The translations under genes and the position numbers were made by a program. A stretch of 64,000 nucleotides of DNA from Opitutia bacterium. GTDB taxonomy: Bacteria > Verrucomicrobiota > Verrucomicrobiia > Opitutales > UBA953. The stretch is from assembly GCA_003569165.1 (NCBI GenBank), contig BGOI01000001.1:404001-468000 (forward strand), read 5' to 3'. Under the pieces are notes generated by a model that worked only from the letters and a program-made list of their open reading frames with translations, was not told the DNA's origin and did not search any database. Shown here piece by piece: positions 32,776-61,971 of the stretch (the first letter of the stretch is position 1; each line of letters starts with the position of its first letter).

Positions 32776-33212
32776 AACTCAAAGGGAAACCGGAAACCGG
32801 ATGATTGGCTGGGGGTATAATTCCGGGTAACAGGTGACGGGCACGGGAGCCAGAAGTTCAGGATCTGGCCGCTCGGGAACCAGCCGCGGAAAGCCGATGC
32901 CGATGGCCGATGGCTGAAAAGCCGACCCCCGAATGGCCGATGCCCGGTGGCCGTCACCCGTCACCTGGGATAATGAATCCCCGCAGCATCCTCCCGGTTT
33001 CCGGCCTCCCTTTGAGATTGCCCCATTGGCTCTAGGTAGGGCCGAGCATCCCTGCTCGGCCGCGGCCAACCAAGGATGGTTGGCCCTACCCAATCACCCG
33101 CCCCCTGAAACAGCTATGTCGTGACGCGGTCCCGACCCTACCCAAGGCAGCCGCTTCAATTCAGCCCTCAACTCAGTCCTCCATTCAGTCATCGATCCAG
33201 TCCTCTGCCCTC
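32776..33212. repeat. Mosaic of palindromic repeat modules (locus 1)
   Basis: This gene-free stretch consists of modules that recur elsewhere: module H (AAAGGG...CCGG...) at 32776-32800 and, inverted, near 32983-33018; a 137-base inverted repeat E at 32831-32967 with GTGACGGG...CCCGTCAC ends; a double REP hairpin (family A, GTAG foot and CTAC foot) at 33036-33090; module I (GTCGTGACG...) at 33118-33136; and a degenerate YTCAGYCCTC tandem J at 33156-33212. The rest up to 33280 is pyrimidine-rich leader with no gene. Confidence 0.8.
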
Positions 33213-33280
33213 TGTCATCCGCCACCACCTTCCGACAACCCCCTCTTGCCTCCCATCATCCTCGACCCAAACTCATTCCC

Positions 33281-34408
33281 ATGCGCACCCTGCTCCTGCT
33301 GCTGCTCACGGCCACCCTTTCCGCCGCTGGCCTGAAAGTCGGCGATCCCGCTCCCGCCACACGACCGGAGTCGATGCTCCAAGGTGCGGCGGTGAAAGAA
33401 TTCAAGAAGGGCGAAATCTACGTCTTCGAATGCTGGGCGAGCTGGTGCGGCCCGTGCGTCGCCGCGATCCCGCACCTGGATGAACTCCACAAGAAGATGG
33501 GCAAGAAAGGCGTGGTCATCACCGGCGTCAACGTCTGGGAAGCCGAACGTGATGCGGCCTCCGCCCAACGCGCGAAAGATTTCCTCAAGGCCCAAGGCGA
33601 TAAGATGTCCTACCGCGTCGCCGTCGGCGGCAAAGCCTTCATCAAGGATTGGCTCGACGCCGCCGAAGTGAATGGCATCCCCATGCCTTCGTCGTCGCCG
33701 AAGGAAAAATCGCCTGGATGGGCCACCCGATGCAACTCACACCAGAAGTCATCGGCGATATCCTCACGGGCACGCCCCTCGCCGCCGCCGCACCGGTCGC
33801 CGACAAGGTCCCGCAGCGTCGCCTGAGCAAACCGGCCGTCCCCGCCTCAAAGTCATCGGGCGACCCCGAGATGCTCGCCGCGCAGGCGAAGCTCGACGCG
33901 CTTTCCGAAGCGATGGGCAACCGCGACTGGGATGCCGCGGAAAAAGCCCTACCCCGCTGCCGCGGGCGTGCTCCCGCCCAAGGAAGGCAAGGAACTCCGC
34001 GAATCCATCGAAGCCCAGATTGGCCTCGCCCGCGGCGATCCGACGAAATTCTACGCCCAGCTCAGCAAGCTGGCCGACGAAGAGTTCGACGACGCCGAGG
34101 CGATGAACGAAATCGCCTGGCGCCTACTCACGGTGCCCGGCTTCGCGAAAAACCTGAACCTCCCCCTCGCGGAAAAGTGCGCCGTGCAGGCGGTGAAGCT
34201 CACGAAGGAAGAACACCCCGATAAACTCGACACGCTCGCGCGGCTTCGCTGGCTCCAAGGGAAGAAGGAAGAAGCCATCCGCTGGCAGATCAAGGCGGTC
34301 GACAAGGCCGAAGCCGGCGCAATGAAAGCCGCCCTGCAGAAGACCCTCGATGCGCTCCTGAAGGGCACCCTCCCTCCGGCCGACGACGAGGAAGAACTCG
34401 GTCGCTGA
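33281..34408 (+). pseudogene. TlpA-like thioredoxin with C-terminal helical repeat domain, two frameshifts
   Basis: Exported thiol-disulfide protein. The first 130 residues carry a signal peptide (MRTLLLLLLTATLSAAGLKV) and the thioredoxin site CWASWCGPCVAAIPHLDELH (WCxxC). At about 33681 one C seems to be missing, after which the expected HAFVVAEGKIAWMGHPMQLT continues in another frame. At about 33948 one C seems to be gained, restoring the original frame for a helical C-terminal region that contains IGLARGDPTKFYAQLSKLAD. Both changes sit in C runs and the flanking translations are well conserved in style, so consensus error is as likely as decay. If intact it would be about 375 residues. Confidence 0.75.
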
Positions 34409-34425
34409 GCAGGCCTCCACGACAC

Positions 34426-34633
34426 GGATGCGATGTCATCGCATCCCTACCCGATACCACTCCAGCCACCTGCCACCTGAGGCTGCCACCCGCCACCTGA
34501 ATCGGCGACTTTGCCTCTAATGTGTTCCCAACCGCCAACCGCTAACCGCCACCACCCGACTTTTGCACCCTTGCACAGGCCGCAGGCCGATTTGCACTTT
34601 TGCACTTAGGACAGCACGTGGTGCTGTCCCTAC
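34426..34633. repeat. Mosaic of palindromic repeat modules (locus 2)
   Basis: Order on the plus strand: REP family C hairpin (GGATGCGAT/ATCGCATCC) at 34426-34446 with a CTAC foot; module F (CCACCTGCCACC-type) about 34463-34501; module K (repeats of CCAACCGC) 34527-34556; module G (TTTGCAC repeats around a GGCCG/CGGCC-like core) 34561-34606; and REP family B (GGACAGCAC/GTGCTGTCC) 34609-34629, again with a CTAC foot. No gene is seen between 34409 and 34664. Confidence 0.8.
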
Positions 34634-34664
34634 CCCAACCCCTACCCCTGCCCCTCTTCAGCCC

Positions 34665-35923
34665 ATGCTCCCCCGCCGCGACTTCCTGAAACTCTCCGCC
34701 CTCGCTTCCCTCGGCGCGCTCGCCGGCTGCGCGTCGGCACCAGCGACGGCCCGCATCCGGCCGATCACGCGCGGGCCGAAGTTCCACTGGCGCGGCTACT
34801 ACGATAAGTTCCTTTTCTCCGCCGATGATCGCTTCGTGCTCGCGAACGAGACGAGCTTCGAAGGCCGCTCGCCGACGAAGGCCGACTCGATCCGCGTCGG
34901 GATGGTCGACACACAGACAGCGACCGCTGGATCGACCTCGGCGGCTCCAACGCCTGGAACTGGCAGCAAGGCTGCATGCTCCAATGGGTCCCGGGCTCGG
35001 ATCGTGACGTAGCTTGGAATGACCGCGAGGACGGCCAGTTCGTCACGCGCATCCTTGATGTGAAATCCGGCCGCACCCGCACACTGCCGCATCCGTTCTA
35101 CACCTTCAGCCCCGACGGCAAGACGGCCTTTGCGCCCGACTTCGCACGACTCGACGTCACCCGCCCAGGCTACGGCTACGCCACGGGGGCCGAACGCGAT
35201 ATCTGGAAGCTCAAGCCGGCCCCTGACGATATCGGCATCTGGAGCATGGACGTCGCCACGGGCCAGCAGCGCCTGCTCTTCTCGCTCGCCGAGGCGGCGA
35301 AGATCCCCTTCACCGGCCCGGCTAACCTCGCCTTCAAACCAGGCGCGATCCATTGGTTCAATCACCTGCTCTGCAATACGGACAGCACGCGCCTCTTCTT
35401 CCTCCACCGCTGGCGCAATCCCGGAGACAAGGGTAGCTTCCGCACGCGGGCGCTGACGATCGATGTCGACGGCGGCAAGGTCCACGTGATGGACCCCAAC
35501 GGCGGAACCTCGCACTTCGTCTGGCGCGACCCGCAGCACATCTTCGCCTGGGCCTGGCACCCTTCACACGGCGAGCGCTTCTACGTCTACACGGACCTCT
35601 CCGACGAGGTCACCGTCGTCGGCAAGGAAGCGATGCCGAACAACGGCCATAACACCTACCTGCCGAACACGAATAACGAGTGGGTGCTCAACGACACCTA
35701 CCCGCAGGGCAAGGACCGCCTGCAGAATCCCTATCTGTATCACATCCCGACGAATCGTCGCGTCCCGGTCGGAGCCTTCCCCGCCCCGCCCGCCTACACG
35801 GGCGAATGGCGCTGCGACACGCACCCGTCGGCCAGCCGTAGCGGACACCAGTTCTGCTTCGACTCCGCCCACGCCGGCGGGCGCCAAGTCTACGTGGCCG
35901 ACATCGCCGGGCTGCTGGGCTGA
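34665..35923 (+). pseudogene. Tat-exported lipoprotein with beta-propeller features, frameshifted
   Basis: The N-terminus MLPRRDFLKLSALASLGALA followed by GC is a twin-arginine signal with a lipobox, so a Tat-exported lipoprotein is predicted. Residues to about 80 are in one frame. Near 34908 an extra AC in ACACAC shifts the frame; the expected RWIDLGGSNAWNWQQGCMLQ then continues in the second frame to 35923. The C-terminal part has repeated blocks such as HPFYTFSPDGKTAFAPDF, GTSHFVWRDPQHIFAWAWHP and NGHNTYLPNTNNEWVLNDTY, like WD40/TolB-type propellers found in secreted proteins of this phylum. Function unknown; if intact about 419 residues. Sequencing error is likely. Confidence 0.75.
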
Positions 35924-35988
35924 GCCGTCACGGTTCTGTCACTCAATCACGCTTCCCATCGGCGGTGGCGTCCTGCATAGTGCCCCCG

Positions 35989-37412
35989 ATGCCTACCCGT
36001 AGCGCACTCGAGCGAGCCCGCTCCGCCTCCATCTTCGCCTCCTGGCCGCCCAGCGCCGCCTGGTCACGAAGCAGCAGAGCGCGGTGATCGTCATCGGCGG
36101 CTGCGACCGCCTCGCGGCCTCCGCGCTCGCCAATCAGCTAACGGAATGGTTCGACTCCCGCACGGTCCGCATCTGCGCTCCGGATGCCGCCTCCATCGAC
36201 GGTCGCCCCTTCCTCTGGCCTTATTGGCAGGAGATGCCGGCCAAAGGCCGCCTGACCATCGTGGTCGGCGATTGGCTCACCCGCACGGCCGTCGAGGTCG
36301 CCTCCCATGAAATTTCTGGTGACGCGCTCCGCGCCCGCCTGAAATCCCTCCGCACGTTTGAAGAACTCCTCGCCGCCGACGGCACGTCGGTGGTCAAGGT
36401 CTGGCTAGAGACGTCGGAGAAGACGCTGCGCAAACGCCTCCGCGACGCCGAGGATACCGACGCCGAGGGCTGGGTGGTCACGGAAGAAGACCTCCTGCTC
36501 GCCAAGCACAGCAGCCTGACCCTCTGTCGCGCACTCCGCAGCCAAGGCAGCGGCAAGAATCTGCCCTGGAAGGTTGTCATGGGTGGCGCCGAGACGAAGC
36601 ACCGCGACCTTAGTGCTGGTCTGGTCATCGCCGCTCAGATGGGTCAGGTCTCGCGACGTCGCCCCGCGGTCCCTGCGAAGAAGCCGAGTGGCCGTCCGCG
36701 CGGTTTGCTCGAAAGCGCCACGGCCCATCCGACTTTGGACAAGAAAGGCTACAGCCAACAGATGGTGAAGCTGCAGACCCGCCTCGGTCGCCTGACGCGG
36801 ATCGCCGCGCAGAAGGGACTCTCGACGATGGTTGTCCTCGAAGGCCCCGACGCCGCCGGCAAGGGCGGCGCAATCCGTCGTCTCTGCGGCCTGCTCGACG
36901 CCGCCCATTACCAAGTCTTCCCGATACCGGCCCCGACGCCGGAAGAAAAGGCCCGACACTACCTCTGGCGCTTCTGGAATAAGGTGCCCGCCCCGGGCCA
37001 CCTCGCAGTCTTCGACCGCTCCTGGTTCGGCCGCGTGATGGTCGAACGCGTCGAGGGTTTCGCCAAGGACGCCGAATGGGCCCGCGCCTACGCGGAGATC
37101 AATGACTTCGAAGCCCGCCTCGCCGAAACGGGCATGGTGGTGCTCAAGCTCTGGATCAATATCTCGAAGGAAGAACAGCTGCGCCGCTTCCATGCCCGCG
37201 AAATCTCTCCGCACAAGCGTCACAAGATGACGAAGGAAGATTACCGCAACCGTAAGAAGTGGGATGCTAACGTCCGCGCAGCCGAAGATATGATCGCGCG
37301 CACCGATACGCCACACGCCCCGTGGGTGGTGGTCTCTGGGGACGATAAGCGCTACGCGCGCGTGGCGACCCTCAAGGCCGTTTGCCGCGCGCTGTCCGAC
37401 CGCCTCGACTAA
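35989..37412 (+). CDS. pap: Polyphosphate:AMP phosphotransferase, two-domain PPK2 (start region frameshifted)
   Basis: Two tandem PPK2 domains, as in class II/III polyphosphate:AMP phosphotransferases. The C-terminal domain has Walker A EGPDAAGKGGAIRRL near residue 250, the Walker B region FDRSWFGRVMVERVEGF and the lid HKRHKMTKEDYRNRKKWD. In the N-terminal domain Walker A is degraded to VIVIGGCDRLAAS, as known for the inactive copy. Translation from ATG 35989 (MPTRSALERARS) needs one added C near 36021 to continue into LRLHLRLLAAQRRLVTKQQS; otherwise it starts at GTG 36084. The 3' end overlaps convergent mutY by 41 bases. It would make ADP from AMP and polyphosphate. Confidence 0.85.
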
Positions 37413-40257: not shown

Positions 40258-40656
40258 AAGCGGTTTGCGGTTTGCGGATGGCGGTTGGGAAAACGTTTGA
40301 GATGCCCCCAGCATCCTTCCCGGTTTCCGGTCTCCCTTTGAGTTCTTACCTCTGTCTTGGGTAGGGCCGAGCATCCCTGCTCGGCCGCTAGGTAGGGGCG
40401 CGACGGCGTCGCGTCCGTTCGCAGGAACCCGAAGCCGATGGCCGATGGCTGAAAGGCCGACCCCCGAGCGGCCGATGCCCCGGTGGCTGTCACCCGTCAC
40501 CTGAATCAATGATATGCCCACAGCATCCTTTCCTGTTCCGGTCTCCCTTTGAGTTAGCCTGTATTTGGTAGGGCCGAGCATCCCTGCTCGGCCGCGGCCA
40601 ACCAAGGATGGTTGGCCCTACCCGATACACCTATGTCGTGACGCGGTCCCGACCCT
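40258..40656. repeat. Mosaic of palindromic repeat modules (locus 3)
   Basis: Modules in order: K (inverted) 40258-40292; H 40306-40345; single family A hairpin 40361-40388 with GTAG foot; REP family D hairpin (GTAG plus GGGCGCGACG/CGTCGCGTCC) 40391-40416; half of E 40421-40503; H again 40519-40556; full double A element 40568-40622; and I 40635-40653. E-H-A-I appear in the same order as in the locus at 32.8 kb. No gene fits this stretch. Confidence 0.8.
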
Positions 40657-40663
40657 ACCCACA

Positions 40664-43937: not shown

Positions 43938-44166
43938 GGTAGGGACAGCACCACGTGCTGTCCTAGGTGCAAAGGTGCAAACCGGCCTACGGCCTGTGCA
44001 AAGGTGCAAAAGTGGATGCAAGTTTCGGGTGGCGGGTGGCAGCCCCGGGTGGCGGGTGGCGGGATCTGTCATTCCCAACCGCCAACCGCCAACCGCTTCC
44101 ACCTGACATGGGTAGGGCCGACCATCCTTGGTCGGCCGCGGCTGACCGAGGCGGTCAACCCTACCT
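43938..44166. repeat. Mosaic of palindromic repeat modules (locus 4)
   Basis: Modules in order: REP family B with GTAG foot 43939-43963; G 43966-44015; F 44028-44063; K 44072-44100; and a double family A element 44111-44165. This is broadly the reverse order of the locus at 34.4 kb. The A copy has changed stems (GGCCGACCA/TGGTCGGCC, and GGCTGACCG/CGGTCAACC) but keeps pairing. No gene is seen between 43877 and 44249. Confidence 0.8.
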
Positions 44167-44182
44167 TATGATGCCTCTCAAC

Positions 44183-44208
44183 AAAAAAGGCCGCCCCTCA
44201 GGCGGCCT
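44183..44208 (-). terminator. Rho-independent terminator after secreted ClpP-like genes
   Basis: On the minus strand GGCCGCC pairs with GGCGGCC around a five-base loop, followed by six T. It lies 42 bases beyond the stop at 44250. Confidence 0.85.
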
Positions 44209-44214
44209 TCGCTA

Positions 44215-44235
44215 GGACAGCACGTGGTGCTGTCC
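44215..44235. repeat. REP family B hairpin
   Basis: GGACAGCAC/GTGCTGTCC hairpin followed directly by CTAC at 44235-44238, placed between the terminator and the stop codon of the secreted ClpP-like gene. Confidence 0.8.
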
Positions 44236-44249
44236 CTACCTTAGGATAC

Positions 44250-45614
44250 TCACCGCGCGCGATACAATCCCTGCGGATCGTAGAGCCACCAGGCGTCGAA
44301 GGGATTAGCGAGAGCAGGGAGTTCGAAATACGGACGGCCTTTATCATCGACGCGCGAGGTCACGCCCGAGATCTCGGTGCGGGTGGGCGGCAGCGGCATG
44401 GGCATGGCGGTCGGCGCGACGGGCACGGGAAGGAGATCGAGCACGGCGGTCTCTTCGATGCGGTCGATGACGTTGTCGACCCACTTGAGCTCCTTGGCCT
44501 TGTCGCCAAAGGCCTGCCAGTCGCCGCTGGAATCGTTGGCGTACATCTGCTTCACGAATTCCGGGAGCGAGATGCCCATCTTCTTGGCGACGGGGGTGGC
44601 GAGGCGGTCGAACCACTGGTTGGTGAAATCAATCTGCTCCTTGAGCACGGTCATGTTACCGCGGACGACGTTCGAGGCCTGGTGATGCAGGAGGATGGTG
44701 TTCGGGTAGCAGTAGGAGCGCTCGGCGAGGGTGCAGATGACGGCGGTCATCGAGGCGGCGAAGCCCTTGACGACGACGTGCACCGGCGCCTTGGAGGCGG
44801 CCATGGCCTTCTGGATCTGGTAGCCGGCGGCGACGGAGCCGCCGGGGGAGTTGTCGACAACGATGAAGATCGGGAACTCGGACGACTGGTTGTTATAGAA
44901 GGAGATGCGCGTGCAGACGTAGTCGGCGAGCTGCTCGGTCACAGCACCATTGAAGGAGATGCGGCGATCGCTGATATACAGGACGCCATCGACGAGGGGA
45001 TCCTTGAGATACTTCGGCTTGGCCTTGCTGGCAATTTTGCGGGCCTCGTCTTCCTTCTGGAAGCGCTGGATCTCATTGGAGAGGCGGGCGATGGTGTTAG
45101 CGGCTTCGAGCTGGAGTTGCTTGGCTTCGGCTTCGAGTTCGCGGATCTTGTTGGAACGCTCCGTCAGGCGGGCGGTGGAACGAGCGGCTTCGAGGCCGGC
45201 CTGGCGCTCGAGCTTGGTGCGCTCGTCTTCAAGGGCGGCGGCTTCGGCGGTAGCCTTGGCGAGGCGGAGCGCACGCTCGGCAGTCAGGCGGGCGACCTCG
45301 GCGTTCAGCGGGGCGAGTTCTTCGGTGCGCTTGGCTTCGGCGAGAGCGAGCTCGGCGTCGATGCGGGCCTTCTCGCCGCGCATACGGTCGGCTTCCTTCA
45401 TCGCGGTCTTCTGCTCGGGCGTGAGCTCATCGCGCGGGATCGGCGCGCCCGGGGCGATGGTGGTCGGCGCGGCGACCGGTGCGGCCGCGGGAGCCGCGGC
45501 GGGCGCGTCGGCGGCCGGAGCGGCGGCGCGCTTGGCCTTGGTCTGCTGGGCGAACACGGGCGCAACCGTCAGAACGGTGAGGGCGAGGACGCGGAGGGAG
45601 GTGCGGAGATGCAT
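44250..45614 (-). CDS. Secreted ClpP-like serine protease with N-terminal coiled coil (paralogue 2)
   Basis: A 454-residue protein with signal peptide MHLRTSLRVLALTVLTVAPV ending FAQ, a Pro/Ala linker, then a coiled coil of about 120 residues (Ala/Glu/Arg/Leu-rich). The C-terminal 240 residues show the ClpP fold: KDPLVDGVLYISDRRISFNG, NSPGGSVAAGYQIQKAMAAS, nucleophile KGFAASMTAV near 289 and His in ILLHHQAS near 311. The Asp of ClpP aligns with SGDWQAFGDKAKELKWVDNV. All three catalytic residues are retained, yet the protein is exported and has no ATPase partner nearby. It follows its paralogue by 20 bases. ATG 45614 is chosen to give the signal peptide. Confidence 0.82.
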   Translation of the reverse strand: MHLRTSLRVLALTVLTVAPVFAQQTKAKRAAAPAADAPAAAPAAAPVAAPTTIAPGAPIPRDELTPEQKTAMKEADRMRGEKARIDAELALAEAKRTEELAPLNAEVARLTAERALRLAKATAEAAALEDERTKLERQAGLEAARSTARLTERSNKIRELEAEAKQLQLEAANTIARLSNEIQRFQKEDEARKIASKAKPKYLKDPLVDGVLYISDRRISFNGAVTEQLADYVCTRISFYNNQSSEFPIFIVVDNSPGGSVAAGYQIQKAMAASKAPVHVVVKGFAASMTAVICTLAERSYCYPNTILLHHQASNVVRGNMTVLKEQIDFTNQWFDRLATPVAKKMGISLPEFVKQMYANDSSGDWQAFGDKAKELKWVDNVIDRIEETAVLDLLPVPVAPTAMPMPLPPTRTEISGVTSRVDDKGRPYFELPALANPFDAWWLYDPQGLYRAR

Positions 45615-45634
45615 GAGGGTGTTTTGGTTTAAAG

Positions 45635-46828
45635 TTAGCGGAGGACGAATTCGACGGTGGGGTCGTACATCCACCAGAGATCGCACGGACCGAGAGGCGG
45701 GAGCTGCTGGCGGACGCGTCCGTCCTGGGCCTTGCCGGCATTGAAGCCGTCAGGGTTGGGTTCGGCCTGGATTGGCGGGACCGCCGTGGCGTTGAACAGG
45801 GAGTCTTCGGCCATCCGGTCGACGACATCGGTCACCCACTTGCGGCGGCCGGCCTCGTCACCGAGGATCTTCCAGTCGCCGGTCGAGGTGCCCTTATACA
45901 TCTGGGCCACGAAGTCGTCGACGTCGGTACCGATACGCGCGGCGACCTTCACGAAGATACGTTCGCACCAGACCTTGCTCCACTTGAGCTGCTCCTTGAG
46001 CTGGGTGACGTTACCGGCCAGGCCCACGGAGGCCTGGTGGTGCAGCACGATGGTCTGCGGGTAGACAAAGGAGCGCTTGGCGAGGGTGGTGATGATCGCG
46101 GCCATCGAGGCGGCGTAACCCTTCACGACGACGTAGACCGGAGCCTTGGAGGTCTCCATGGCCTGGAGCATCATGTAGCCCGACATCACGGAGCCGCCCG
46201 GTGAACGGTCGATGACGATGAAGATTGGGGCTTCGCTATCGATGGCGTTATAGAAGGCGATGCGGCCGCAGACGAACTGGGCGAGCTTGTCGTCGACGCG
46301 ACCGTTGAACGGGATGCGGCGATCGGAGATATGCAGGACGCCGTCGATGAGCGGGTCCTTCGGGTAGCTCACCAAGGCGCCACTCGCGATATCGGCGGCC
46401 TTGGCCTGGAGGCGGGCAATCTGGGCGACGGACGAGACCTTGGCGTATTCGACGGAGACTTCGGCGGTAACGAGGCGAGCCTGCACTTCGAGTTCGGCGC
46501 GGGCGCGATCCTTGTCGGCAGAAGCGACGGCGGCCTTGGCGGCGGCGAGCGCTGCATCGAGTTTGAGCTTCGCCTGCTCAGCGTCGACCGGAGCAGCGGC
46601 GGCATCGGCGCGGGCGGCGCGGAGGGCGGCTTCGGCTTCGAGCTTACGGAGTTCGAGGGTCTGCGTTAGCGCGGCGAGACGACGTTGCGAAGAAGCGAGG
46701 TCGAGGCGGGCGCGGATGACGTCGGTCTCGATCTCGGCCTGGATGGTCTCGGGGGTCTTCTTGACGGGCCCCTGCTGGGCCATGACGAGCGCTGCGAAGA
46801 GAAGAGGGACAAGGGCCAGGCGCGACAT
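45635..46828 (-). CDS. Secreted ClpP-like serine protease with N-terminal coiled coil (paralogue 1)
   Basis: A 397-residue protein with signal peptide MSRLALVPLLFAALVMAQQG and an Ala/Leu/Glu-rich coiled coil (about residues 30-140). The ClpP-like part contains KDPLIDGVLHISDRRIPFNG, DRSPGGSVMSGYMMLQAMET, nucleophile KGYAASMAAI near 241 and IVLHHQAS near 264, with the third catalytic residue in STGDWKILGDEAGRRKWVTD. It is about 40 percent alike by eye to the adjacent gene and shares its domain order, so the two arose by tandem duplication. It is divergent from psd. Both genes end in WWxYDP text near the C-terminus (LWWMYDP; AWWLYDP), a shared tail motif of unknown role. Confidence 0.82.
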   Translation of the reverse strand: MSRLALVPLLFAALVMAQQGPVKKTPETIQAEIETDVIRARLDLASSQRRLAALTQTLELRKLEAEAALRAARADAAAAPVDAEQAKLKLDAALAAAKAAVASADKDRARAELEVQARLVTAEVSVEYAKVSSVAQIARLQAKAADIASGALVSYPKDPLIDGVLHISDRRIPFNGRVDDKLAQFVCGRIAFYNAIDSEAPIFIVIDRSPGGSVMSGYMMLQAMETSKAPVYVVVKGYAASMAAIITTLAKRSFVYPQTIVLHHQASVGLAGNVTQLKEQLKWSKVWCERIFVKVAARIGTDVDDFVAQMYKGTSTGDWKILGDEAGRRKWVTDVVDRMAEDSLFNATAVPPIQAEPNPDGFNAGKAQDGRVRQQLPPLGPCDLWWMYDPTVEFVLR

Positions 46829-46894
46829 GGGGGTAAGGAGTGTATTGACAGATATATGGTTCCCTTGAAGCCCATTTTTAGCAAATCTGCCCGC

Positions 46895-47800
46895 ATGGAA
46901 GCCGACGCCCCTATCACCCTGCTCAATCGCCATACCGGCCGCATGGAGACCGAACAGGTCTACGGCGAGGCCTGGCTGCGTCGTATCTACGGCAACCCGC
47001 TCGGCAAGCTGACCCTCCACGCCGTGGTCAAACGGGGCCTTTTCTCCAAGCTGTACGGCTGGGCCATGGATCGCCCGAGCAGTGCGCGTCGCGTTGCGCC
47101 CTTCGTGAAAGCCTTTGGCCTGGACCCGGCCGAGTTCGCGGACTCCGACCTGAACTCGTATCGGACCTTCAACGACTTCTTCTACCGCAAACTCAAGGAC
47201 TCCGCCCGGCCGGTCGACCCGCGCCCTGAGATGGCCGTATTGCCGGCGGATGGCCGTCACCTCGGCTTCCCGGACGCCTCGCGCGTGAAAGGCATCTTCG
47301 CCAAGGGCCAGACCTTCGACATCGCAGCGCTCGTCGCGGATCGTACGCTTGGTGAACGCTACGCCCGCGGCACCGTCGTCTGCTCGCGCCTCTGCCCGGT
47401 CGACTACCATCGGTTCCACTTCCCTGTCGCCGGCGTGCCCGGTGAACCCGTGCTCGCGAAGGGACAGCTCTACTCCGTCAACCCGATCGCCCTGCGTCGT
47501 AGTGCCGCGTATCTCTGGCAGAACAAGCGCCAGCGCGTGACCATCGACGCGGGACCGTTCGGCCTCGTCACCATGGTCTCCATCGGCGCCACCAACGTCG
47601 GCACCATCATCGAGACCTATCAGCCCGGCCAGGCTGTCGCCAAGGGCGACGAGAAAGGCTACTTCCGTTTCGGCGGATCGTTCGTCGCGACGATTTTCGA
47701 GCCCGGCCGTATTAAGTTAGAGGACGACCTCATCCACGCCGGCGAAACCGCCGTGGAAGTGTACGCCAAGGTCGGTTCGCCCCTCGGCCGCCTCGCCTAA
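46895..47800 (+). CDS. psd: Phosphatidylserine decarboxylase
   Basis: Psd converts phosphatidylserine to phosphatidylethanolamine. The pyruvoyl-forming cleavage site is GGS in YFRFGGSFVATIFEPGRIKL near the C-terminus, with CPVDYHRFHFPVAGVPGEPV in the catalytic region. ATG 46895 (MEADAPITLLNRHTGRMETE) is chosen because homologues start shortly before NRxTGR; ATG 46856 is an alternative. The 301-residue length fits the group with an N-terminal extension. The protein self-cleaves into alpha and beta chains at the membrane. pssA is not in the window. Confidence 0.93.
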   Translation: MEADAPITLLNRHTGRMETEQVYGEAWLRRIYGNPLGKLTLHAVVKRGLFSKLYGWAMDRPSSARRVAPFVKAFGLDPAEFADSDLNSYRTFNDFFYRKLKDSARPVDPRPEMAVLPADGRHLGFPDASRVKGIFAKGQTFDIAALVADRTLGERYARGTVVCSRLCPVDYHRFHFPVAGVPGEPVLAKGQLYSVNPIALRRSAAYLWQNKRQRVTIDAGPFGLVTMVSIGATNVGTIIETYQPGQAVAKGDEKGYFRFGGSFVATIFEPGRIKLEDDLIHAGETAVEVYAKVGSPLGRLA

Positions 47801-47958: not shown

Positions 47959-48090
47959 AGAGGACTGAGTCGATGACTGCGTAGAGGACTGAATAGAGTG
48001 CTGAATCGATGAGATGCAGAACTCAAAGGGAGACCGGAAACCGGAATGTTTGCTGCGGGCCTTAGGTAGGGGCGCGACGGCGTCGCGTCC
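47959..48090. repeat. Repeat modules downstream of tRNA-Leu (locus 5)
   Basis: Positions about 47959-48016 hold the inverted copy of the degenerate J tandem (GAGGACTGA-type units), then module H (AACTCAAAGGGAGACCGG) at about 48012-48043, then a REP family D hairpin with GTAG foot at 48065-48090. No gene is seen here. Confidence 0.75.
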
Positions 48091-49087: not shown

Positions 49088-49116
49088 GCGCGACGGCGAA
49101 GTAGTGAGTTCATTCT

Positions 49117-49444
49117 CGGGTGACGGGTGACGGGCACGGGAGGCTGGAGTTCCGGATCCGGCCGTTCGGGAACCAGCCGCGGGAACCCGAAGCCGATGGC
49201 CGATGGCTGAAAAGCCGACTCCTGAGAGGCCGATGCCCCGATGGCCGTCACCCGTCACCTGAAGCAATGAGTATCCCCAGCTAATCGTCCGGTCTCCGGT
49301 TTCCCTTTGAGTTTTAAACTCCCGCCACCTGCCACCCGGGGCTGCCACCCGCCACCTGAAACGATGCCTTTCACCTTTGCACTTTTGCACAGGCCGCAGG
49401 CCGATTTGCACCTTTTGCACTCAGGACAGCACATGGTGCTGTCC
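49117..49444. repeat. Mosaic of palindromic repeat modules (locus 6)
   Basis: Modules in order: the long inverted repeat E 49117-49261 (TGACGGGTGACGG...CCGTCACCCGTCA ends), H 49272-49316, F 49320-49360, G 49372-49420 and REP family B 49424-49444 with CTAC foot. F-G-B repeats the order at 34.46-34.63 kb, and E-H the order at 32.8 kb. No gene is found between 49088 and 49500. Confidence 0.8.
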
Positions 49445-49500
49445 CTACCTCCCATTTGCCTTTCCCCGCCTTCCCCCCACTCTAGCTCTATCTTCTCCCC

Positions 49501-55765: not shown

Positions 55766-55835
55766 AGACCCCCAAGAGACTCCAACCACCCCAGCGAGGG
55801 AAGCCGGAGTTATTCCCAGCAGGGTAAAGCCAGCA

Positions 55836-56125
55836 TTTTCAGGTCCCAGGTCTCGGCTACAGGTTCGGGCATGGGCGCCAGGTTCGGGCGCGGGAATCAG
55901 GCCTGGGACCTGTACCCGAACCTGAACACCTGAACCTGATACCCGACGGCCGAGACCCGAGACCTGAAACATGACCCCGCCACCTGCCACCCGGAGCAGC
56001 CACCGGCCATCCGTGACAGCATCATCCATTCAGCCCTCCATTCAGTCCTCAACTCAGCCCTCAACCCAGCCCTCCATTCCGCCCTCAACTCCCCCTATAC
56101 TCCATACTCTATACTCCATACTCTC
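55836..56125. repeat. Repeat modules between divergent genes (locus 7)
   Basis: About 55836-55968 is a long imperfect inverted repeat (arms CAGGTCCCAGG... and ...CCTGGGACCTG, with further CAGGTTCGGG-type units). A fragment of module F follows at 55979-56000, then the degenerate J tandem 56026-56092 and a TACTCCATACTC-type tandem 56094-56125. The J block and the following pyrimidine-rich leader match the order at 33.16-33.27 kb. No gene is seen from 55766 to 56195. Confidence 0.75.
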
Positions 56126-56858: not shown

Positions 56859-58298
56859 GTGAAGTCCTTCCGTCACACACGCATCACGTTCACCATCGGT
56901 CCGGCCACGGAGTCGGAGGCCCAACTAGAAGCGATCATCCAGGCCGGAGCCAACGTGGTCCGACTCAATATGGCCCACGCTGACCATGCCTGGGTCCGCG
57001 CCACCGTCGAACGCGTCCGGCTCGTCAGCCGCCGCATGAAGAAGGAGCTCGCGGTGATGATGGACATCAAAGGCCCGGAAATCCGCACCGGCGCCCGCAA
57101 GGAGGCCACCCAGCTTACCGTCGGACAAGTCGTCGACGTCACGGGCTCCGACGCGGCCCAGGCCGAAGGCGACATCCTCGTCATCCCCACCAATTACCCA
57201 AAAATGATCAGCGCCGTGCCCGTGGGCGGCGTCGTCTTGGTCGACAACGGCCTGATCCAGCTCCGCGTCCTCGCGCAGAAGCAGGACCGCCTCCGCTGCA
57301 AGGTCGAGCAGCCCGGTCCCCTCGGCAGCCGCCGCCACATCAACCTCCCCGGTGTCAAGGTCGACCTCCCTGCCCTCACCGACAAGGACCGCGCCGACGT
57401 GGCCGTCGGCTGCGAGGTCGGCGTCGACTTCTACGCCCTCTCGTTCGTCCGCGAAGCGGCCGACGTCTACGCCCTGCGCACTCTTCTCGCCCAGCATGAG
57501 TCGAAGGCCCACATCATCTCAAAAATCGAGGACCAGTCCGCCATCGAGCACCTCGGTTCTATCCTTGAAGCCACCGACGCCCTGATGGTCGCCCGCGGAG
57601 ACCTCGGCATCGAAATCCCTTACGAGACCTTGCCGCTCATCCAGCGTCGCGCGGTCGCCATGGCCATCGCCTGCCGCAAGCCGGTCATCGTCGCCACGCA
57701 CATGCTCGAGTCGATGATCCAAAACCCGGTCCCGACCCGCGCTGAAGTGACCGACGTCTCCAACGCCGTCCTCGAGATGGCCGACTCGGTGATGCTTTCC
57801 GGCGAGACCACCACGGGTAAACACCCCATCCGCTGCGTCGAAGTGATGAAACGGATCGCCAAGACGACCGAGAACGAACTGCCGCGCGTGCTTTCGCCTG
57901 AGCAGCCGAACGAGACCCCGAAGATCAAGCTCCTCCGCGCCGCCGCTGGCCTCGCCCAGGATCTCGGCAACACGGGCATCATCGCATTCACGCGCAATGG
58001 CGACGTGCCCCGCACCCTTTCCTCCCTCCGCTCGGTCGGCTGCCCGATCTATGCGTTCATGGAAGAAGAACACGTCCACCGGAAGATGAGCCTTCTCTGG
58101 GGCGTCGAGTCTTTCCAGATGAAGTTCGAGCCCAAGGCCGAGGATAATATCACGCTGGCGCTCATCCGACTACGCGACGAAGGCTACTGCGTGCCTGGCC
58201 AGATGCTCGTCATCGTGACCAACGTTATTCTGGGTCCGACCGTTATCGATTCCGTCCAGCTCCGTATTGTCCCGGCCATCGAAGCACCGAAAGTTTGA
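56859..58298 (+). CDS. pyk: Pyruvate kinase
   Basis: Pyk makes pyruvate and ATP from phosphoenolpyruvate. The 479-residue product begins at GTG 56859 with MKSFRHTRITFTIGPATESE. Key blocks are MMDIKGPEIRTGARKEATQL, KDRADVAVGCEVGVDFYALS, IEDQSAIEHL, MVARGDLGIEIPYETLPLIQ (metal- and PEP-binding) and ATHMLESMIQNPVPTRAEVT. The C-terminal regulatory domain contains AFTRNGDVPRTLSSLRSVGC. Length fits the standard enzyme. It is followed by a repeat region. Confidence 0.95.
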   Translation: MKSFRHTRITFTIGPATESEAQLEAIIQAGANVVRLNMAHADHAWVRATVERVRLVSRRMKKELAVMMDIKGPEIRTGARKEATQLTVGQVVDVTGSDAAQAEGDILVIPTNYPKMISAVPVGGVVLVDNGLIQLRVLAQKQDRLRCKVEQPGPLGSRRHINLPGVKVDLPALTDKDRADVAVGCEVGVDFYALSFVREAADVYALRTLLAQHESKAHIISKIEDQSAIEHLGSILEATDALMVARGDLGIEIPYETLPLIQRRAVAMAIACRKPVIVATHMLESMIQNPVPTRAEVTDVSNAVLEMADSVMLSGETTTGKHPIRCVEVMKRIAKTTENELPRVLSPEQPNETPKIKLLRAAAGLAQDLGNTGIIAFTRNGDVPRTLSSLRSVGCPIYAFMEEEHVHRKMSLLWGVESFQMKFEPKAEDNITLALIRLRDEGYCVPGQMLVIVTNVILGPTVIDSVQLRIVPAIEAPKV

Positions 58299-58324
58299 AG
58301 GGTGGCAGGTGGCGGGATAGGGTG

Positions 58325-58634
58325 GGATGCGATGACATCGCATCCGCCTGCATCTAGGTAGGGCCGAGCATCCCTGCTCGGCCGCGGCCAACCAAGGATG
58401 GTTGGCCCTACCCGTATTCATTCTCAGGTGACGGGTGACGGCCACCAGGGCATCGGCCCCTCAGGAGTCGGCCTTTCAGCCATCAGCCATCGGCTTCGGG
58501 ATCCTGCGGCCGGCTCCCGAACGGCCGCAGCATCCTTCCCGGTTTCCGGTCTCCCCTTGTGGCTATCCTCTGCATCGGGGTAGGGCCGAGCATCCCTGCT
58601 CGGCCGCGGCCAACCAAGGATGGTTGGCCCTACC
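58325..58634. repeat. Mosaic of palindromic repeat modules (locus 8)
   Basis: Modules in order: REP family C hairpin 58325-58345; double family A element 58358-58411; an inverted half of E from 58424 to about 58515; H 58527-58559; and a second double A element 58579-58634 with GTAG and CTAC feet. No gene fits 58299-58636. Confidence 0.8.
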
Positions 58635-58636
58635 AA

Positions 58637-59500
58637 TTAGATCTGAAAATACCTTCGCGCCAGCGCCTGCGTGCCGGCGTCGCCTTCGCCGGCGGCGACG
58701 ACGTCGCCGTAGAGTTTCGCGGCGAGTTCGAGGCCTGGCAGTTTGATGCCCTGCTCTTTGCACACATCGAGCGAAAGGCCGATATCCTTCACGAAATGCT
58801 TCACGTAAAAGCCCGGGGCGAAGTCGCCCTTGAGCACACGCGGAGCGAGGTTCAGCAGCGCCCAGCTGGACGCGCCGCCGCCCGAGATCGAACGGAGCGT
58901 GGTCTCGAGGTTGAGGCCCGTGGCGTGCGCGAAAGCCAGAGCTTCGGACATCGCGATCATGCCGGAAGCGATGCCTATTTGGTTGGCGAGCTTGCAGAAC
59001 TGGCCCGTGCCGGGACCGCCCTGGAGGACGATTGTCTTGCCCATCGCGGCGAACAGCGGCGCGGCGAAATCAAAATCCTTCTGCGCACCGCCGACCATGA
59101 TGGTCAGCGTGCCTTCGCGCGCGCCGCGATCGCCACCCGAGACCGGAGCATCCAGCGGGCCGAAATCTTTGGCAGCAGCCTCGGTAGCCAGCGAACGGGC
59201 GAGGGCCGGGCTCGACGTTGTCATGTCGATAAGCACACAGCCGGGCTTGGCGGTCGACATGAAGCCCTGCGGTCCGCGCCAGACTTCTTCGACGTCGTTC
59301 GGATAGCCCACCATCGAGATCACCGCGTCGACGCCCTTGGCCGCTTCGGCCGGTGAGGCGGCCCACTTGGCGCCGAGCGCAAAGAGGTCATCTGCCTTGG
59401 ACTTCGTGCGGGTGTAGACCGTGACCTCATGGCCCGCCTTGAGCAAGTTGGCCACCATGCTCTTACCCATCACTCCTGTGCCCACGAATGCGATTTTCAT
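58637..59500 (-). CDS. 3-hydroxyisobutyrate dehydrogenase / tartronate semialdehyde reductase-like protein
   Basis: A 287-residue NAD(P)-dependent beta-hydroxyacid dehydrogenase. The N-terminal Rossmann motif is IAFVGTGVMGKSMVANLLKA, followed by LIDMTTSSPALARSLA and the substrate-binding DAPVSGGDRGAREGTLTIMV. The catalytic Lys lies in GQFCKLANQIGIASGMIAMS. The family includes GarR and MmsB; substrate choice cannot be read. ATG 59500 gives MKIAFVGTGVMG; an upstream extension reads only repeats. It ends directly beside a REP copy. Confidence 0.9.
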   Translation of the reverse strand: MKIAFVGTGVMGKSMVANLLKAGHEVTVYTRTKSKADDLFALGAKWAASPAEAAKGVDAVISMVGYPNDVEEVWRGPQGFMSTAKPGCVLIDMTTSSPALARSLATEAAAKDFGPLDAPVSGGDRGAREGTLTIMVGGAQKDFDFAAPLFAAMGKTIVLQGGPGTGQFCKLANQIGIASGMIAMSEALAFAHATGLNLETTLRSISGGGASSWALLNLAPRVLKGDFAPGFYVKHFVKDIGLSLDVCKEQGIKLPGLELAAKLYGDVVAAGEGDAGTQALARRYFQI

Positions 59501-59537
59501 GAGGGGAGTGAAGGCGGAACGCGTCCGATGGCAAACA

Positions 59538-59772
59538 GGTAGGGATGCGATGACATCGCATCCGCCTGTATCGAGGTAGGGACAGCACCACGTGCTGTCC
59601 TCGGTGGAAAAGTGGATGCAAACTTCAGGTGGCGGGTGGCAGCCCCGGGTGGCAGGTGGCGGGATAGGCAGGGATGCGATGACATCGCATCCGCCTCTCT
59701 TTAGGGTAGGGCCGAGCATCCTTGCTCGGCCGTTCGCTCAACCGCGCCCGACCAAGGATGCTCGGCCCTACC
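59538..59772. repeat. Mosaic of palindromic repeat modules (locus 9)
   Basis: Modules in order: REP C with GTAG foot 59538-59562; REP B with GTAG foot 59575-59599; F (inverted) 59628-59665; REP C 59672-59692; and a variant double A element 59705-59772 with a longer spacer between its hairpins. Three GTAG-foot families occur here within 240 bases. No gene fits 59501-59813. Confidence 0.8.
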
Positions 59773-59813
59773 AACCGCTTGCCCTCCGCCTCCGAATCCT
59801 CGAACCTACCGCC

Positions 59814-60998
59814 ATGTCCTCAGCGCCCCTCACCGTCAGCGAGCTCTCCGATGTCCTCAAGGGCACGGTGAACCGCATCGGCACGGTCGAGGTCGTCGGC
59901 GAAATCTCGGGCTATAAGCACTACTCCTCGGGACATCATTACTTCTCGATCAAGGACAGCGGCGCCACGCTCGCCTGCGTTCTTCTCAGCTACCAAGCCC
60001 GCTGGGTGAAGTTCCCGCTGGGCGATGGCGTGAAGGTCATCGTCAAGGCCAAGGCTGATATCTACGCGCCGTCCGGCAAGCTCTCGCTGATGGTCGATTC
60101 GATGAAGCCGGCCGGCGAAGGCGACCTCTTCCAGAAATTCAAGGTGCTGCAGGAGAAACTGAAGGCCGAAGGGCTCTTCGACGAAGCGAACAAGCGTCCC
60201 CTGCCCGACTTCCCGAAGGTCGTCGCGTTCGTCACCTCCGAAAGCGGCGCGGTCTGGCACGACTTCACCGAAGTACTCAAGACCCGTGGATGGAGCGGCA
60301 CGGCCTGGCTCGTGCCGGCGCGCGTCCAGGGCGAAACCTGCCCAGGCTCGGTGGCCAACGGCCTCAAGCTCGCCAACGCCATCCCGGGCATCGACCTCAT
60401 CGTGGTCGGCCGCGGCGGAGGCTCGATGGAAGATCTCTGGGGCTTCAATGACGAAGGTCTCGTGCGCGCCGTGCGCGCCAGCAAGACGCCGGTCATCTCG
60501 GCCGTCGGCCATCAGACCGACTTCACGTTGTGCGACTTCGCGGCCGACAAGCGCGCCGAGACCCCGACCGCCGCGGCCGAACTCATCGTCTCCGGCCAGA
60601 TCAAGCTGCGCGAAAAGCTAAAGCTCCTCGCCGCCGAACTCGCCCGCCACTCTCCCAAGGCCAAGCTGCAATCACTGTACCAGGATCTCGATCTGCTGAA
60701 CGAACGCCTCGATGGCGCCGCTCAGGAAGTCGTCGCGGAATATCGCCATCGCCTCTCCGAGCTCGGCAGCGAACTCCATCGCCTCTCGCCCAAGGCCCGT
60801 CTCGGCGTCACGCGCGAGAAGCTTAACCAGCTCGGCCATCGCCTCCGCTCGGCCGGCTTCGAATCCATCCTGTCCCGCGGCTACTCCATCGTCCGCGACG
60901 CCGACGGCACCGTCATCTCGACCAGCAAGGGCGTGACCAAGGGCCGCAAACTCCGCCTCAAGTTCAACGACGGCGAAGCCGACGCGACGGGGGGGTAG
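59814..60998 (+). CDS. xseA: Exodeoxyribonuclease VII large subunit
   Basis: XseA is the catalytic subunit of ExoVII, which degrades single-stranded DNA. The 394-residue product starts at ATG 59814 with MSSAPLTVSELSDVLKGTVN. An OB-fold domain contains VEVVGEISGYKHYSSGHHYF and SIKDSGATLACVLLSYQARW. The nuclease domain has AFVTSESGAVWHDFTEVLKT, LIVVGRGGGSMEDLWGFNDE and VISAVGHQTDFTLCDFAADK. The coiled-coil C-terminus is present. The small subunit gene xseB is not adjacent. The stop lies 6 bases before the tandem REP array. Confidence 0.94.
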   Translation: MSSAPLTVSELSDVLKGTVNRIGTVEVVGEISGYKHYSSGHHYFSIKDSGATLACVLLSYQARWVKFPLGDGVKVIVKAKADIYAPSGKLSLMVDSMKPAGEGDLFQKFKVLQEKLKAEGLFDEANKRPLPDFPKVVAFVTSESGAVWHDFTEVLKTRGWSGTAWLVPARVQGETCPGSVANGLKLANAIPGIDLIVVGRGGGSMEDLWGFNDEGLVRAVRASKTPVISAVGHQTDFTLCDFAADKRAETPTAAAELIVSGQIKLREKLKLLAAELARHSPKAKLQSLYQDLDLLNERLDGAAQEVVAEYRHRLSELGSELHRLSPKARLGVTREKLNQLGHRLRSAGFESILSRGYSIVRDADGTVISTSKGVTKGRKLRLKFNDGEADATGG

Positions 60999-61003
60999 TT
61001 AAC

Positions 61004-61305
61004 CTGCCTCGGGTAGGGCCGGGCATCCCTGCCCGGCCGCAAGCTGCCTCGGGTAGGGCCGAGCATCCCTGCCCGGCAGCGTGCTGCCTCGGGTAGGGCC
61101 GAGCATCCCTGCTCGGCCGCAAGCTGCCTCGGGTAGGGCCGAGCATCCTGCTCGCCGCAAGCTGCCTCGGGTAGGGCCGAGCATCCCTGCTCGACCGCAA
61201 GCTGCCTCGGGTAGGGCCGAGCATCCCTGCTCGACCGCAAGCTGCCTCGGGTAGGGCCGAGCATCCCTGCTCGGCCGCGGCCAACCAAGGATGGTTGGCC
61301 CTACC
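61004..61305. repeat. Seven-unit 40-bp tandem array of REP family A
   Basis: Units begin at 61004, 61044, 61084, 61124, 61162, 61202 and 61242. Each has CTGCCTCGG, then GTAG, then a GGCCGAGCA/TGCTCGGCC hairpin, then GCAAG. The fourth unit has lost two bases; units 5 and 6 share a G-to-A change. The last unit is a complete double element ending CTAC near 61304. The array lies next to the RAYT gene, between it and xseA. Confidence 0.9.
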
Positions 61306-61320
61306 TTAGCTAACCCTACC

Positions 61321-61761
61321 TTAATAGGTAAAAGGCCAATCAATCGGCTCAGCGCATAACCCTGCCCTCACCGGATTATTCCGGACGTACCGACATTTTT
61401 CCGCGACCTCGTGCTCCCCTCTTAGCCGGTGATCAAAGAATCCTTTCTGCCAGGAAACGCCTGCGTGTCTGGCTAAGTGTTGCTTCAAGTCTGCAACAGT
61501 CTTCGGCATTCCTTTACGGTGATCGAATTGCGCGATGATATGCAGGTGATCAGGCATCAGGACGCTGACCACGGGCCTGATCAGCCCCTTGGACTCATAG
61601 AACGCCAACGCTCCACGATAAACCGCGGCCGTCACCGGGTTTGCCAGCTGATTCAACCCTCGCGGCTGACAGCAAATCGTCACGAACCACTTATCTTTCT
61701 CATCAACCCAGGACGGGATGGCGTGATAAAGACGATCCCGGGTCGGCAAAGGCATCGACAA
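61321..61761 (-). CDS. REP-associated tyrosine transposase (RAYT), IS200/Y1 HUH type
   Basis: A 146-residue single-strand DNA transposase. The HUH motif is PDHLHIIAQF with His72 and His74. The catalytic Tyr is most likely Tyr125 in CRYVRNNPVRAGL, and WQKGFFDHRLR is a RAYT signature. ATG 61761 is chosen; ATG 61755 is possible. Length is typical and no key residue is missing. REP copies flank it: the seven-unit array ends 16 bases beyond its stop, and further copies lie about 70-210 bases upstream. RAYTs bind GTAG-type REP hairpins in other bacteria; there are no IS ends typical of IS200. Confidence 0.92.
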   Translation of the reverse strand: MSMPLPTRDRLYHAIPSWVDEKDKWFVTICCQPRGLNQLANPVTAAVYRGALAFYESKGLIRPVVSVLMPDHLHIIAQFDHRKGMPKTVADLKQHLARHAGVSWQKGFFDHRLRGEHEVAEKCRYVRNNPVRAGLCAEPIDWPFTY

Positions 61762-61831
61762 AAGATGGCAAGCTCCACGTCTTCACCAAAGCAGGAGAGC
61801 CATCAGCCCACGCATAGGTTTAATACTCTAA

Positions 61832-61971
61832 CGGCCGACCAAGGATGGTTGGCCCTACCAACTCACTGCCTTGGGTAGGGCCGAGCATCCCTGCTCGGCC
61901 GCAAGCTGCCTCGGGTAGGGCCGAGCATCCCTGCTCGGCCGCGGCCAACCAAGGATGGTTGGCCCTACCCA
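61832..61971. repeat. REP family A copies upstream of RAYT
   Basis: A half element (GGCCGACC...TGGTTGGCC, CTAC foot) at 61832-61859, one single GTAG-foot hairpin at about 61875-61902, and a full double element 61915-61969. The remaining 61762-61831 holds no feature beyond the RAYT leader. Confidence 0.85.

Follow-up and report, generated by a model that had tools for sequence, protein, structure and literature searches.

The intergenic mosaics of this 64,000-nucleotide stretch of an Opitutia bacterium genome (referred to as the window) are mobile DNA of a known kind: they represent a variant of the REP/RAYT system that is unusually diverse and fast-changing. They very probably consist of GTAG-type REPs accumulated from their cognate RAYT (REP-associated tyrosine transposase) lineages together with longer palindromes, in gene gaps that are rewritten quickly.

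The initial annotation had described eleven gene-free stretches built from one common set of palindromic modules, and the modular construction is borne out: eleven clusters lie between 32.7 and 62.1 kb (32776–33193, 34424–34634, 40274–40659, 43938–44240, 47960–48090, 49118–49449, 55841–56123, 58300–58634, 59538–59772, 61012–61305 and 61831–61969). The exception to "gene-free" is the 61.0–62.0 kb region, where a RAYT gene that had been missed sits between the last two stretches. The features are as follows.

32776–33016, plus strand: E palindrome whose center holds a nested M (E arms 32776–32814 and 32983–33016; M arms 32825–32838 and 32953–32966)
33035–33090, plus strand: tail-to-tail pair of REPs (REP A dimer)
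33118–33142, minus strand: REP K (GGTAGGGTCGGGACC)
33162–33193, minus strand: module I (12-nt quasi-repeats)
34424–34451, minus strand: REP C
34465–34605, minus strand: F (34465–34498), H (34530–34549, called on the plus strand) and G (34559–34605)
34609–34634, minus strand: REP B
40274–40344, minus strand: H (40274–40286) and E half (40306–40344)
40360–40418, plus strand: REP A, then REP D
40489–40659, unstranded: M arm, E half (40519–40555), REP A dimer (40567–40622) and REP K (40635–40659)
43938–44096, plus strand: REP B, G, F and H
44111–44165, plus strand: REP dimer with stems CCGAC and TTGAC
44215–44240, minus strand: REP B
47960–48090, plus strand: I (47960–47991), E half (48020–48058) and REP D (48065–48090)
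49109–49449, unstranded: M (49109–49272), E half (49275–49313), F (49324–49357), G (49373–49415) and REP B (49424–49449)
55834–56123, unstranded: J, a long inverted repeat (55834–55970), T arm (55979–55992), I (56031–56062) and Q (56098–56123)
58300–58634, unstranded: T arm, REP A dimer (58357–58412), T arm (58426–58439) belonging to an M copy, E half (58525–58559) and REP A dimer (58579–58634)
59538–59772, unstranded: REP C, REP B, F and a REP A pair (59705–59733, 59746–59772)
61012–61305, plus strand: REP A array, seven direct copies with a period of about 40 nt, then one inverted copy (CCAAC stem)
61324–61755, minus strand: RAYT gene, 144 aa (NF047646 match, translation, flanking A arrays, tree)
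61831–61969, plus strand: second REP A array, beyond the RAYT gene (inverted, direct, direct, inverted)

Altogether, the 32.7–62.1 kb region holds 68 module copies (R 36, T 14, E 7, G 4, I 3, H 3, Q 1), and the same census gave just one copy between 1 and 32.7 kb. F, M and J were treated as one class because of their common arm pattern, RGGTNNCRGGTNNC; H, for which a one-seed nhmmer search gave no matches, was counted by pattern; and two degenerate REP C copies seen by eye (at about 58.32 and 59.67 kb) were left out. Note that H and I of the initial annotation were taken as M and K of the present analysis. A second count of the region, based on unmerged pattern matches with a stricter REP stem rule and with E left out, gave 31 REPs, 18 T arms, 6 I, 5 H, 4 G and 3 Q, against means of 0.01, 0.32, 0, 0.03, 0 and 0, respectively, over 100 dinucleotide-shuffled versions of that sequence; the E profile had no match in 20 shuffles. 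A tRNA was the sole match in an Rfam scan of the window. The wider census of the same genome covered 231 kb of 2.03 Mb, in stretches picked for having matches; stretches of kin were picked for orthology or close kinship, and the copy numbers are not genome totals. Of 417 modules of every kind, 25 fell inside genes as called by a rough gene caller with visible errors. The modules are present across the genus.

Five of the families (A, B, C, D and K) belong to the GTAG-type REPs, each consisting of the head GGTAGGG and a class-specific stem. In the 231 kb, a 9-bp stem with at most one mismatch comes directly after 190 of 348 GGTAGG heads; when the head letters are put in any of the 29 other orders, 3 of 3717 occurrences have such a stem. 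In addition, 31 distinct perfect stems occur across the stretches from this genome and its kin. The stems covary: among 18 rows selected for perfect stems, there were 49 double-change cells versus 10.8 in shuffled data and the covariation score was 0.882 versus 0.182, neither value being reached in any of 500 shuffles. Two of the five measures used did not go beyond the shuffles, namely pairs changed on both sides (7 versus 5.4, reached by 43 of 500) and further pair types (16 versus 14.0, reached by 96 of 500). Covariation was counted on stems with 4-nt loops only (alignment A2), because alignment A1 misplaces 3-nt loops. The REP model (R1) has matches in 54 of 55 genomes. A conserved motif ahead of the head was considered and dropped as a defining feature, being weak (position −1 is a purine in 316 of 359 REPs, and position −7 is G or T).

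Judged by its sequence, the gene at 61324–61755 is a RAYT and the predicted cognate of REP family A. Its open frame carries an HxH motif (PDHLHI) and scores 82.2 bits with the NCBIfam model NF047646 (REP_Tyr_transpos), against a cut-off of 80; two paralogues, C3:71k and C32, fall under this cut-off with 71.4 and 69.1 bits, and no Pfam match at E 0.001 was obtained with a frame of this gene that is a little longer. More generally, a GGTAGGG REP lies within 350 nt of the RAYT, on at least one side, at all 43 loci examined among 55 RAYT places (41 by scan and two, both of family K, by eye). In a maximum-likelihood tree, all 11 stem classes represented by at least two rows form single RAYT clades with bootstrap values of 98–100, the class labels being set by eye and many classes combining two stems. 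With labels set in this way, 18 RAYT-linked stem classes were found in the genus. All five REP families of the window have a cognate RAYT in the genus; in the genome studied here, a cognate was found for A and for B only.

REP abundance follows the presence of RAYTs, with a median count of 77 in 28 genomes with a RAYT versus 27 in 27 genomes without (p 9e-5; at most 125 candidates were scored per genome, and the p value overstates independence because the genomes are related). REP-rich genomes in which no RAYT was found (G061, G012 and G039, with 118, 106 and 81 matches) call for RAYT loss, missing contigs or another route. Loci of B-type RAYTs share flanks at 77–86%, and RAYTs of one class often keep one locus across species, so that the RAYT itself usually looks vertically inherited.

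The contents of the gaps, in turn, differ strongly between species. In seven orthologous gaps compared with the relative G015, 14 of 57 module slots are kept; this exceeds the mismatched-site null of 8.1 (P 0.005), indicating that turnover is incomplete, and a further comparison with relatives gave 13 of 49. At 48.0 kb, an E half and REP D are kept in this genome, G015 and G007; at 49.1 kb, E-F is kept in G015. The center of an E is occupied by M here and by half a J at the corresponding place in G015, and neighboring modules change separately. A whole RAYT–REP unit has been replaced between near-identical flanks in G002 versus G060 and G053. A 6136-base segment shared by G060:C32 and G002:C81 (99.25%) contains no gaps and hence no turnover. 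Empty and filled versions of one site, which the initial annotation had suggested looking for, exist at 55.8 kb: among ten genomes, there are gaps with and without E, M or J, two having no recognized module and two more a single REP. In this comparison, G007 displays a tandem duplication of a block comprising a REP dimer, H, half a J and an E half. Besides, a REP C in this genome and a REP A in G004 begin at the same base.

Could such changes occur with no current transposition, the modules being old repeats reshuffled mainly by recombination or template switching between common arms? Constant arms around changed centers, such as the E just mentioned, the REP C and REP A sharing a start base, the duplication in G007 and the REP-rich genomes with no RAYT found all fit this idea. 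We nevertheless consider it rather unlikely, given that REP counts track RAYT presence, that class-specific REPs adjoin every RAYT examined and that the common arms are only about 16–40 nt long. Conservation of the modules as RNA hairpins (terminators or 3′ end stability), with mobility being secondary, appears improbable. Strong folding and a higher frequency in convergent gaps (23 of 31, versus 35 of 82 tandem and 11 of 21 divergent gaps, with the rough gene caller) agree with such a role, but the module-free and single-REP gaps at 55.8 kb and the large change between species do not, and longer gaps may simply collect repeats.

The order of the modules is non-random, largely owing to REP dimers and to nesting in E. 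Tail-to-tail REP contacts number 55 versus 19.8 expected and, in the stretches from this genome, contacts of the E outer end with a REP head 18 versus 8.6, and contacts of G with an F arm 8 versus 1.5, the latter being absent from the top kin contacts listed. The recurrent orders reported initially can be recognized: E-H-A-I corresponds to E-(M)-E-A-A′-K at 32.8 kb and M-E-A-A′-K at 40.5 kb (reported at 40.4 kb), and F-G-B to F-(H)-G-B at 34.5 kb, F-G-B at 49.3 kb and the reversed B-G-F at 43.9 kb. These orders and contacts, the fact that E was never found without REPs (0 of 42 genomes), the correlation of E and REP counts across genomes (rho 0.70) and the block duplicated in G007 would suit a composite cassette or integron-like process shifting modules together in fixed order. 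Such a process is quite improbable, however: neighbors change separately at orthologous sites, the order largely reflects dimers or nesting, and 12 of 54 REP-bearing genomes lack E, although only two of them (G039 and G048) have more than 20 REP matches. REPs thus occur without E but not the reverse, so that separability is one-sided. The co-mobilization of the whole set put forward initially is not supported, relatives keeping few module slots at any one site; cassette-like events are seen as single cases, i.e. the replaced RAYT–REP unit, the exchanged E center and the G007 block. Finally, an artefact of metagenome bin assembly is extremely improbable: the named genomes are draft bins and the sites repetitive, but both flanks are kept at 55.8 kb in ten bins, the 48.0 kb arrangement is common to separate bins, and the modules are shorter than usual read pairs.

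E is a palindrome in whose center M, J or REPs can be nested; in the stretches from this genome, 9 of 11 complete pairs are empty and 22 of 44 halves are unpaired. Viewed as a candidate MITE, E has 22-bp arms that fold, and seven full copies inspected by eye displayed no obvious target-site duplication. In TIRtrons, a tyrosine transposase lies between long inverted repeats (PMC3733652), and a likeness to them would make E or J terminal repeats of another such transposase. The RAYT profile search gave 19 additional weak hits (E 8e-8 to 6e-4), mostly ORFs of 306–333 aa, and the 12 loci that hold 14 of these 19 distant Y1 hits contained neither E nor an autonomous partner for it, unlike TIRtrons; the candidate was dropped. 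GGTAGGG occurs at 3 of these loci, its distance to the ORF being at least about 240 nt. Neither for E, which was sought at these 12 loci, nor for M/J/F, G, H or I was a transposase found. One idea, which we regard as unlikely, is that E acts as a dedicated landing hairpin, whose loop is entered by single-strand-acting elements (REP dimers, M and J) that are exchanged in it while its arms persist; gene gaps would then carry exchangeable hairpin tips. REPs within palindromes are known, but a common docking site at which elements of different classes replace one another does not appear in the excerpts of PMC3733652, PMC3686654 and PMC8266576.

We favor a scenario in which GTAG-type REPs and longer palindromes pile up in the gene gaps of this freshwater Opitutae genus, each REP class, with its constant head and own stem, deriving as a non-autonomous element from a RAYT lineage of its own. 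What moves would most likely be a tail-to-tail REP pair (REPIN), or a RAYT between two outward-headed REPs, mobilized by the RAYT and cut as a single-stranded hairpin by analogy with characterized RAYTs. As RAYT lineages come and go, a genome would hold REPs of its current RAYTs along with those of RAYTs known only in relatives. A second layer, made of E and of the M/J/F elements that it often harbors, would spread by some route. Insertions, deletions and recombination among copies, occurring time and again, may then rewrite the gaps quickly, which would account for common modules, local order preferences and differing combinations at orthologous sites. With a single constant head combined with 18 RAYT-linked stem classes, and with species alignable at both gap flanks, the genus could become a comparative test bed for RAYT recognition (head, stem or loop) and for the speed of gap rewriting; a further lesson is that, in genomes of this sort, the DNA between genes can evolve far more rapidly than the genes themselves.

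E. coli BIMEs and Neisseria intergenic regions are mosaics of REPs and other motifs, and Opitutus terrae belongs to the same class as the present genus. Mosaic intergenic regions have been described (PMC2817692, PMC3733652), and what the present case adds to BIMEs and Neisseria mosaics is comparative evidence of module replacement between species. The initial annotation saw this grammar as richer than ordinary REP/BIME clusters; the coexistence in a genome of multiple REP families with their specific RAYTs, palindrome-nested dimers and mosaics are already published (PMC3733652, PMC3686654). O. terrae, described as "highly enriched in GTAG repeats", has several coexisting REP families (PMC3733652); by that description, it resembles our genus in its several GTAG families and in dimers 1–2 bp apart, whereas RAYT clades are matched here with stems within one genus. 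REP dimers inside longer palindromes, as in GTAG-15 of A. variabilis and GTAG-23 of T. roseum (PMC3733652), parallel the REPs found here in the center of a longer palindrome, except that E also occurs empty and also holds M or J. The dissemination of REPs is called poorly understood (PMC8266576). The GTAG REPs and REPtrons of Stenotrophomonas maltophilia, with REP classes SM1–SM13, share with our system a GTAG head adjoining an 8–9 bp perfect stem, inverted doublets, class-specific RAYTs, several classes per group and class turnover with RAYT loss (PMC3686654, PMC8266576). The present genus differs from S. maltophilia by a GGTAGGG head with two constant G–C pairs at the stem base, by its 18 RAYT-linked stem classes in a single Verrucomicrobiota genus and by the interleaving of REPs with E, M, J, F and G palindromes.

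The modules and module orders quoted in the initial annotation were confirmed by repeat search and by reading. In a fixed-rule count, the region 32.7–62.1 kb of the window (C1:404001–468000 of the source genome, a 2.03 Mb draft) holds 68 module copies in 11 clusters and the region 1–32.7 kb a single one, and module matches are almost absent from shuffled sequence. With positions 1–32700 nearly module-free (the sole match is a T arm, the arm shared by modules M, J and F) and the second half dense, the modules are clustered along the contig. Short quasi-tandem words also occur near gene starts (TATACTCCATACTC, ATTCAGCCCTCC and CCCCTACCCCTGCC at 56098–56123, 33156–33222 and 34635–34666), and those at the 55.8 kb site vary between species. 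Two adjacent ClpP-like genes on the minus strand (44250–47419), stretches of which are 72–74% alike and one of which has a weak NfeD match, look like diverged copies.

GGTAGGG opens the hairpins of all five families (A, B, C, D and K). In 231 kb of DNA from the source genome, comprising the window and 20 stretches picked for hits, 190 of 348 GGTAGG heads lead into a 9-bp stem carrying no more than one mismatch, compared with 3 of 3717 heads in which those letters are rearranged. The stretches from this genome and its relatives contain 31 distinct perfect stems. Covariation was counted on 18 stems whose loops are 4 nt long: of the nine pairs, seven vary on both sides and the two at the base are constant G–C; double-change cells number 49 versus 10.8 in shuffles and the covariation score is 0.882 versus 0.182, two of the five measures not being clearly above shuffles (7 versus 5.4 pairs; 16 versus 14.0 types). 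As these rows were picked for perfect stems, their 100% pairing holds by construction. The REP model matches 54 of 55 genomes of the genus, and the exact REP A pattern retrieves 67 stretches in named records, nearly all of them bins that carry the label Opitutae, Opitutia, Opitutales, Opitutus or Verrucomicrobia, in some cases together with a lake name. Two contigs with exact REP A (L021, L027) are labelled Akkermansia muciniphila, a suspected naming error. One genome, G060, has further REP stems (GGCGGGTTG, GGACGGCTG and GGACCGCTG; L161 7568–7849, L156 1093–1128) to which no RAYT was assigned among the loci examined.

The open RAYT gene between the last two clusters of the window (61324–61755, minus strand) matches profile NF047646 with 82.2 bits (cut-off 80). 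A protein search of the 55 genus members gave 55 RAYT places in 28 genomes, four of them in the source genome; one place (G007:C73:1251–1667) contains an in-frame stop codon. At 43 of these places the flanks were examined: a scan placed REPs within 350 nt at 41, and reading revealed family K at the remaining two. Locus L096 begins at a contig end. The REP stem class agrees with the RAYT clade: all 11 classes with at least two rows form single clades (bootstrap 98–100), in a scheme of 18 RAYT-linked classes whose labels were assigned by eye and many of which unite two stems. The cognate RAYTs of families A and B are in the source genome and, among the RAYT places found, those of C, D and K only in relatives. 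Genomes with a RAYT have a median of 77 REPs versus 27 in those without (p 9e-5), the genomes being related by descent and the counts, like those of E below, being lower bounds from a limited number of candidates scored per genome. Several bins in which no RAYT was found are nonetheless REP-rich, which bin incompleteness or RAYT loss could explain.

The long module E is a palindrome of ~87 nt (fold z −9.1). Of its 44 halves in stretches of the source genome, 22 make up 11 pairs, with an empty centre (7–14 nt where read) in nine, M in one and a REP dimer in one; two of the six pairs in relatives have an empty centre. The arm RGGTNNCRGGTNNC is common to M, J and F, and 12 of the 24 inverted arm pairs of this class span 140–147 nt. 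E matches 42 of the 55 genomes and its counts correlate with those of REPs (rho 0.70); in 12 genomes REPs are present but E was not found, and two of these are rich in REPs (G039, at least 81; G048, at least 83), while E without REPs was found in none of the 55. Neither the RAYT profile search nor 12 loci covering 14 of its 19 distant Y1 matches yielded a transposase for E. A second group of Y1 transposase-like ORFs is present in genus members (L168, L169, L171–L179; 308–333 aa from stop to stop, 221 in L172), and no E lies near them in the stretches read.

We compared module contacts with those obtained after shuffling modules among clusters and randomising orientations (source genome, 99 clusters and 276 contacts; relatives, 60 and 151). 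Tail–tail REP contacts exceed expectation in both sets (55 versus 19.8; 29 versus 9.9), as do contacts between the E centre and M/J/F arms (11 versus 2.2; 11 versus 1.4) and between the outer end of E and REP heads (18 versus 8.6; 9 versus 5.0, P 0.04). Head–head REP contacts are depleted in the source genome (2 versus 19.8), and G–F arm contacts, enriched there (8 versus 1.5), are absent among the contacts listed for relatives. Given this pattern, and since part of the counted contacts fall within a single element, the module grammar proposed initially is non-random but consists mainly of REP dimers and nesting.

We delimited seven orthologous gaps ourselves and compared them with two relatives, G015 (matched to bin UBA953 by identical sequence over 3.9 kb) and G004 (matched in the same way, over 8 kb, to the bin of CAIWNE010000070.1). 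Only 14 of 57 module slots are kept in G015 (mismatched-site null 8.1, P 0.005) and 13 of 49 in G004 (null 5.7). Flanking blocks match G015 at 87–98%, dropping to 82 and 68% in the gene to the right of the last site. They match G004 at 84–90%, with 71% in the last block, which contains the RAYT. At 49.1 kb, a nearly identical E–F block is bordered on the left by M in the source genome versus half a J plus H in G015, and on the right by G and B versus K. The 55.8 kb gap measures 114–839 bases in ten genomes (within the frame compared), its modules being identified by eye. Gaps both with and without recognised modules occur at this site, G040 and G018 having none. In G060 and G053 the gap contains a single degenerate REP of the GCAGC stem class and no E, M or J. 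E combined with M is seen in G015, G011 and G050, although no right E arm is recognised in G011 or G050. G007 carries M but no left E arm, and additionally a tandemly duplicated block of modules; J is present in the source genome and G004.

A B-type RAYT flanked by two B REPs in G060 and G053 is replaced in G002 by a GCAGC-type RAYT flanked by GCAGC REPs in the opposite orientation, with a B REP stub at the right. The adjoining flanks of G002 and G060 are 98–100% identical. Because this flank matches the B-RAYT loci of the source genome, G047, G004 and G011 (80–85%), we read the G002 state as derived. G060 and G053, 93–96% identical in their main blocks, differ from each other in modules as well.

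The best reading of these sequence comparisons is class-specific mobilisation of REPs by RAYTs, combined with recombination and a palindrome layer. Each REP would be mobilised by the RAYT of its own class, RAYT lineages would be gained and lost, copies would recombine with each other, and the palindromes, to which no transposase was matched, would form a separate layer.

Several of these features have precedents. In Nunvar et al. (2013; PMC3686654), RAYT proximity defines 22 REP classes in fluorescent pseudomonads and 13 in stenotrophomonads, and RAYTs at one chromosomal place can bear different REP classes. Corneloup et al. (2021; PMC8266576) show that cleavage by the S. maltophilia RAYT requires GTAG and the loop and is impaired by stem mismatch, stem sequence having milder effects. 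Di Nocera et al. (2013; PMC3733652), the only match with REP terms among those listed for REPs in Verrucomicrobia or Opitutus, describe Opitutus terrae as highly enriched in GTAG repeats, REPtrons as specific to their repeats, REP dimers within palindromes and Neisseria intergenic regions as mosaics. In light of this prior work, we regard the mosaics of the window as a variant of the REP/RAYT kind with unusually high diversity.
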